Of a DNA stretch of 40,830 nucleotides, positions 30,495 to 31,310 are shown piece after piece. Each line of letters begins with the position of its first letter. The stretch's first letter is position 1. The notes beneath the pieces were generated by a model that saw only the letters and a program-made list of their open reading frames with translations, was not told where the DNA came from and searched no databases. Source of the DNA: Candidatus Limivivens merdigallinarum (GTDB taxonomy: Bacteria; Bacillota; Clostridia; Lachnospirales; Lachnospiraceae); assembly GCA_018713105.1 (NCBI GenBank), contig DVFT01000042.1, positions 1 to 40,830 on the forward strand. Reading direction: 5' to 3'. The translations under genes and the position numbers were made by a program.

Positions 30495-30658
30495 ACTATA
30501 GCAATTCAAGAAAATATTACAGCAAAGACTGTGTAGCAGAACGTGAAAGACAAGGAAGGCAGCTGATGGCGTGCCGGGGCACGTCGAAGCTGTCTGACGC
30601 TGGATTTCGCGTTCTGATGCACTGGATTTGATGCGATATTTCCTTAGATTGCTATAGT
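30495..30658. repeat. Palindromic element A (164 bp), long imperfect inverted repeat with CGTGC-CGGG-GCACG tip
   Basis: actatagcaattcaagaaaatat... mirrors ...atatttccttagattgctatagt; inner arms gcagaacgtgaaa / tttcgcgttctg. Confidence 0.85.
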
Positions 30659-30818
30659 ACAGCGTTCGACAAATAACTGGACCAATCGTGCAGAATGCTT
30701 TTTCGAGTGTGCGGGTCAAAAAACGCAGGCGTAGCGGGCTACGTCGAGGCTTTTTGACCCGTGCAATCGGGAAATCAGGCAAGTGATTTGGTGTAGTTAT
30801 TTGCGAAACGCTGTACTA
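30655..30818. repeat. Palindromic element B (164 bp), abutting A, with CGTAG-CGGG-CTACG tip
   Basis: tagtacagcgttcgacaaataact...agttatttgcgaaacgctgtacta; inner GGGTCAAAAA/TTTTTGACCC. Confidence 0.87.
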
Positions 30819-30996: not shown

Positions 30997-31310
30997 ATCG
31001 TAAGTATCAACCTATACGATTCCAGCACTCATTTCCCTGATTTCAATCGTAGTAGCTGTCTAGCCTATACCATTCCAGAATCCACTTTCCAGATTTAGAT
31101 CGTAGTAGATGCCTCATCTATACGATTCCTAAATCCACTTTCTCGATTTAGATCGTAGTAGACACCGCATCTATACGATTCCTAAACCTACTTTCTCGAT
31201 TTAGATCGTAGTAGACTCCTCTCCTATACGATTCCTAAATACACTTTCCTGATTTAGATCGTAGTAGGCGCCTCACCTATACCATTCCTGAATCCCCTTC
31301 CCCGCACCAC
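30997..31310. repeat. Tandem array, 53-bp period: 44-bp palindromic repeats with 9-bp variable spacers
   Basis: Full palindromes at 31012-31055, 31065-31108, 31118-31161, 31171-31214, 31224-31267; half repeats at both ends. Consensus CTATACGATTCCTAAATCCACTTTCTCGATTTAGATCGTAGTAG. Confidence 0.92.

Follow-up and report, generated by a model that had tools for sequence, protein, structure and literature searches.

RUP of Streptococcus pneumoniae is an element of ~100-200 bp with terminal inverted repeats (TIRs), a TA target and a stem-loop transcript, for which mobilisation in trans by an IS630 transposase has been inferred (PMC2229807). Correia/NEMIS and ERIC elements also present TA at their termini, TIRs and a stem-loop formed by the whole element (PMC2229807). 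REPs are marked by GTAG or CGTC tags, the GTAG ones being associated with tyrosine transposases of the RAYT type (PMC3733652). Here we describe two adjoining palindromes, A and B, found in a window of 40,830 nucleotides (the whole stretch analysed, contig DVFT01000042.1 of Candidatus Limivivens merdigallinarum, Lachnospiraceae).

Both palindromes lie at 30495-30818, where the first-pass annotation had placed them, and were found again in the inverted-repeat listing (I1-I3). Their limits were set by comparison between copies: the length of 156 bp was exact in five A copies, and 159-161 bp was the B-type length across Lachnospiraceae genera, nearly all complete B-type elements being flanked by TA on both sides. 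In the window, A is thus 156 bp long and B 160 bp, and the 164 bp previously assigned to both resulted from tracing the arms on into the flanks. The TAGT described as a 4-bp overlap is present, and is reread as one TA common to A and B plus two bases. Since other A copies in the genome read TA-GT or TA-GC past the same end, the TA duplication bordering A is most likely where B entered (Table 1). The tips CGTGC-CGGG-GCACG and CGTAG-CGGG-CTACG with the flank GTCGA(A/G)GC were as described before; the A/G position is able to pair, as T-A in A and as C-G in B and in most of the Bacteroidales copies (see below). Coding capacity was not evident in A or B, both too short for a transposase, and their neighbours are an RluA-type pseudouridine synthase gene on one side and a convergent ApbE-type gene on the other. 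Directly downstream of B, at window positions 31009-31302, a 53-bp unit (CTATACGATTCCTAAAT..GATTTAGATCGTAGTAG) with a small inverted repeat of its own is arrayed ~5.5 times, and imperfect 24- and 54-bp repeats (TTCGCTCTCGGCTGCTGCC..) are densely packed at 2080-2589, overlapping open frames of both strands.

Table 1 Parts of elements A and B in the window
Feature	Position	Strand	Basis
Left TA of element A (target duplication)	30497..30498		TA on both sides in 5/5 complete A copies compared
Element A, 156-bp MITE	30499..30654	+ (CGGG-loop strand)	terminal repeats TAGCAATYC..GRATTGCTA
Tip of A, GGCGTGC-CGGG-GCACGTC + GAAGC	30568..30590	+	core pattern, 17 places in genome
TA common to A and B, apparent insertion point of B	30655..30656		A-TA-B-TA order
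Element B, 160-bp MITE, IS630-type	30657..30816	+	terminal repeats GTACAGCGTT..AACGCTGTAC
Tip of B, GGCGTAG-CGGG-CTACGTC + GAGGC	30728..30750	+	core pattern; identical tip in Bacteroidales elements
Right TA of element B	30817..30818		copy comparison

A search of the 3.47-Mb draft genome of the window's organism with the core pattern GGCGTNNCGGGNNACGTCGARGC, allowing ≤2 mismatches, gave 17 places and none in the reversed control. Element A was represented by ~12 copies plus fragments, 87-99% identical and with unrelated flanks, and B by about five to six copies, five of them 96-100% identical, plus divergent ones and fragments. Several contigs break off inside A, as repeats are expected to interrupt assembly. 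Another repeat, with ends TAGTACAGTGAAAAAYAAATG, adjoins A and B copies at three loci of the same genome. Beyond this genome, the core was present in 11 of 397 genomes of Lachnospiraceae, and scans of genome contigs revealed it in exact form in many Lachnospiraceae, including [Ruminococcus] faecis and [Eubacterium] cellulosolvens, and also in Bacteroidales, including Phocaeicola coprophilus An818; in those genomes it tips a hairpin of ~160-240 nt. The absence of further copies, which would have told against an element family, was therefore not what we found. In a single Bacteroidales genome of 2.8 Mb, 196 and 201 terminal half-sites correspond to ~200 element copies, so that the element can be very successful. 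Exact pattern matches in Streptomyces and other GC-rich genomes had short or irregular folds and were taken as chance. Scanned plasmid records gave no match to the element, and phage records gave two partial ones, both in unannotated records; three IMG/VR matches were set aside, with only 37 nt aligned at the tip (E 0.05).

The B-type elements of Lachnospiraceae start with GTACA or a close variant. One Lachnospiraceae genome with a B-type element also contains a complete IS630-family element of 1288 bp, with TA on both sides. Its transposase (412 aa) scored 229 bits with the NCBIfam IS630 model (cut-off 100), and its ends matched the B-type TIR with identity up to 19/24 (shuffled mean 6.1, maximum 15); the B-type ends thus match those of an IS630 element in a related genome, as expected of an IS630-mobilised MITE. 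In E. cellulosolvens, IS630 fragments adjoin CTAGTACA-type ends. The window's own genome, searched for IS630, gave only one fragment, interrupted by a stop. No IS630 or other transposon with A-type ends was found, A showing TA flanks only. IS1380 was considered as the Lachnospiraceae mobiliser and rejected: it is absent from most of these genomes, and where present its ends do not match. A B-like element with the variant tip loop CGGTGT occurs at L319:2782-2948, with an IS630 gene nearby in the genome.

The Bacteroidales elements, ~190 bp long, have the same tip and hairpin and start with CCCAAATCGGTCATTAG, and their ends are unrelated to those of A and B. A 5-bp target duplication flanked 84 of 98 copies, compared with 15% when the flanks were re-paired by shuffling. 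One truncated IS1380-family transposase gene in Bacteroidales has the element's terminal sequence ACCCAAATCGGTCATTAGGA beside it, the match expected of IS1380-mobilised MITEs. Two other candidates were discarded: G397:C1:100827-103147, examined as an autonomous element, consists merely of host genes flanked by two partial copies, and at a DDE_Tnp_1 locus encoding an IS5-family transposase the element end lies inside the transposase's own frame. At L228:411-2760 a Bacteroidales element begins exactly at the stop codon of a gene, the TAA being within the target duplication. Three further Bacteroidales loci hold hairpins with the CGGG loop and different arms and ends (e.g., GATAG-CGGG-CTATC).

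Folded as RNA, each element gave a single hairpin spanning its whole length. The + strand had an MFE of -82.3 kcal/mol in A and -83.9 kcal/mol in B (z ~ -11; 0/200 shuffles as good), and the minus strand was weaker in both (-59.8 and -68.2 kcal/mol). Covariation was analysed in 19 B-type elements drawn from different genomes, with shuffles and slid alignments as controls: 95.3% of the cells were paired, double changes occurred in 37 of 62 pairs (19.3±2.4 shuffled), and the covariation score was 0.418 against 0.163 shuffled and ≤0.101 slid. The proposal of the first-pass annotation that the family is under selection for secondary structure therefore gained support, its covariation standing well above both controls. 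The tip hairpin is nearly invariant within B and covaries between A and B (UGC/GCA vs UAG/CUA); the helices change, whereas the tip is conserved together with its G-U pair, and so are sequences of the internal loops, for example CGCAGAATG and CAGGCAAG. G-U cells numbered 107 and A-C cells 11, or 90 and 11 when the tip G-U was excluded (p ~1e-16 assuming independent cells, which they are not fully). The CGGG strand was the more stable one in 8/8 A, 21/21 B and 44/48 Bacteroidales elements, 73/77 overall. Given this excess of G-U over A-C and the better folding of the CGGG strand, the fold of one strand is what is selected, either as RNA, the other reading offered by the first-pass annotation, or as single-stranded DNA.

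The same paired arms could be read in another way. Template switching perfects long quasi-palindromes, and A and B could be ordinary MITEs whose arms pair only through such self-correction between arms, the structure being functionless and the tip conservation possibly due in part to recent common descent. Such a process does not predict the strand bias among the cells outside the tip, nor that internal loops and tip be kept in two phyla while the helices change, and we hold it to be improbable, though it fares best among the alternatives. A little less probable still is that the elements, while spreading as MITEs, benefit the host as cis-acting RNA, whether by stabilising mRNA, as a processing site or as a terminator. 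The elements are mostly intergenic, ERIC and Correia hairpins act on mRNA (PMC2229807), and there is a terminator-like match at the tip of B (30728-30745); this match, however, sits within the longer hairpin with its T run itself paired, and a similar one occurs on both strands. The orientation of the elements relative to tandem neighbouring genes, taken as simple long ORFs, showed no bias (17 same, 20 opposite), which speaks against a cis role on mRNA. That these are independent small-RNA genes turned repetitive is highly improbable: strong covariation and conserved loops would suit them, but not terminal repeats that match each other, duplicated targets and transposons with corresponding ends, and neither a sigma-70-like promoter nor an Rfam match (A and B fell below the gathering threshold) was found.

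Weaker evidence supports selection acting on the element's propagation and not on a benefit to the host. Among 72 young Bacteroidales copies, variants present in at least 3 copies fell at unpaired sites in 17 of 28 cases, compared with 7 of 30 singletons (Fisher p = 0.007, indicative only, as the numbers are small and shared variants partly mark subfamilies); this is the pattern that selection at the copying step predicts. The account we consider likely is that A and B are related MITEs moved in trans, whose one-strand hairpin is kept for their own propagation. B would be cut and pasted by an IS630 (Tc1/mariner-like) transposase that reads GTACA-type ends and duplicates TA, and would have landed at the TA duplication bordering A; A, TA-flanked and with different ends, would most likely depend on another such enzyme. 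Selection for propagation would hold the one-strand hairpin, including the tip capped by CGGG and the 5'GNW/3'GA internal loop next to it, and the folded RNA or single-stranded DNA would probably be bound by some putative factor. What the data show directly is the TA on either side, the number of copies, the agreement between transposon ends, the covariation and the strand bias; transposition in trans is inferred from these observations, as are, less directly, the bound factor and any choice between RNA and single-stranded DNA.

A joint MAFFT alignment of all classes gave a poor common structure outside the tip, and separate covariance models were therefore built. With the model from Lachnospiraceae B-type elements only, E-values were 6e-6 to 9e-11 for the Bacteroidales elements and 2e-4 for A; with the Bacteroidales model they were mostly 1e-6 to 1e-9 for the B-type and 1e-4 for A (best overall ~1e-10 across models). 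The tool itself describes its E-values as rough, but both search directions agree. That elements with unrelated transposon ends share this tip in two phyla suggests a portable structural module. Wider scans revealed that other Bacillota families, and likewise other Bacteroidales, contain related hairpins whose tips vary. At six loci of other Bacillota there were long hairpins with tips GGCGTAC-TGG..-GTACGTC and GGCGTAG-TGGTG-CTACGCC, in which the internal motifs CAAGGCG / CAACGCAG recur. We tentatively extend the portable module to propagation, at somewhat less than even chances: a folded RNA or single-stranded DNA with a putative widespread recognising factor would have moved from phylum to phylum and from MITEs of one transposase to those of an unrelated one (IS630, duplicating TA, and IS1380, duplicating 5 bp), swapping ends and keeping tip and internal loops, and the variant-tip hairpins of other Bacillota and Bacteroidales would form one superfamily with it.

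The first-pass annotation had left the elements as MITE- or REP-like. They are short, multi-copy at unrelated sites and without a transposase of their own, and have TIRs, target duplications of TA or of 5 bp, and IS630/IS1380 transposases that match; of the two labels only the first holds. REPs and REPINs are likewise many short extragenic hairpins, but they are tagged hairpins without TIRs or target duplications, and the A/B family has both, with DDE-type transposases. By the features tested, A and B are bacterial MITEs, B of IS630 type like RUP, and not REPs. BrickBuilt/MITE239 of P. gingivalis are also Bacteroidales MITEs, and their listed TIRs (IS5 type, PMC4596501) do not match CCCAAATCGG. 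Correia/NEMIS and ERIC resemble A and B in architecture, with TA termini, TIRs and the whole-element stem-loop. The TATAGC end of A presumably resembles Correia ends, and we know of no comparable cross-phylum core in Correia/NEMIS or ERIC. No published description of the element was found in the open-access literature, by motif or by sequence. MITEs are expected to be little beyond transposase-binding ends; here it is the interior rather than the ends that two phyla and two unrelated transposase families have in common, and its covariation is strand-specific. Whether the spread of some MITEs is aided by a nucleic-acid structure that they carry, and by what such a structure is bound, thus becomes open to testing. 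RUP, proposed as a MITE of IS630-Spn1, is like B in size, TIRs, TA target and IS630 type, and was described for pneumococcus (PMC2229807), whereas the structured core of the A/B family, with its tip and loops, recurs in several genera, in both phyla and with either type of transposase. As a kind, MITEs are thus already known in bacteria, RUP among them, and the part that looks new is a conserved, covarying hairpin interior common to MITEs of two unrelated transposase families in two phyla.
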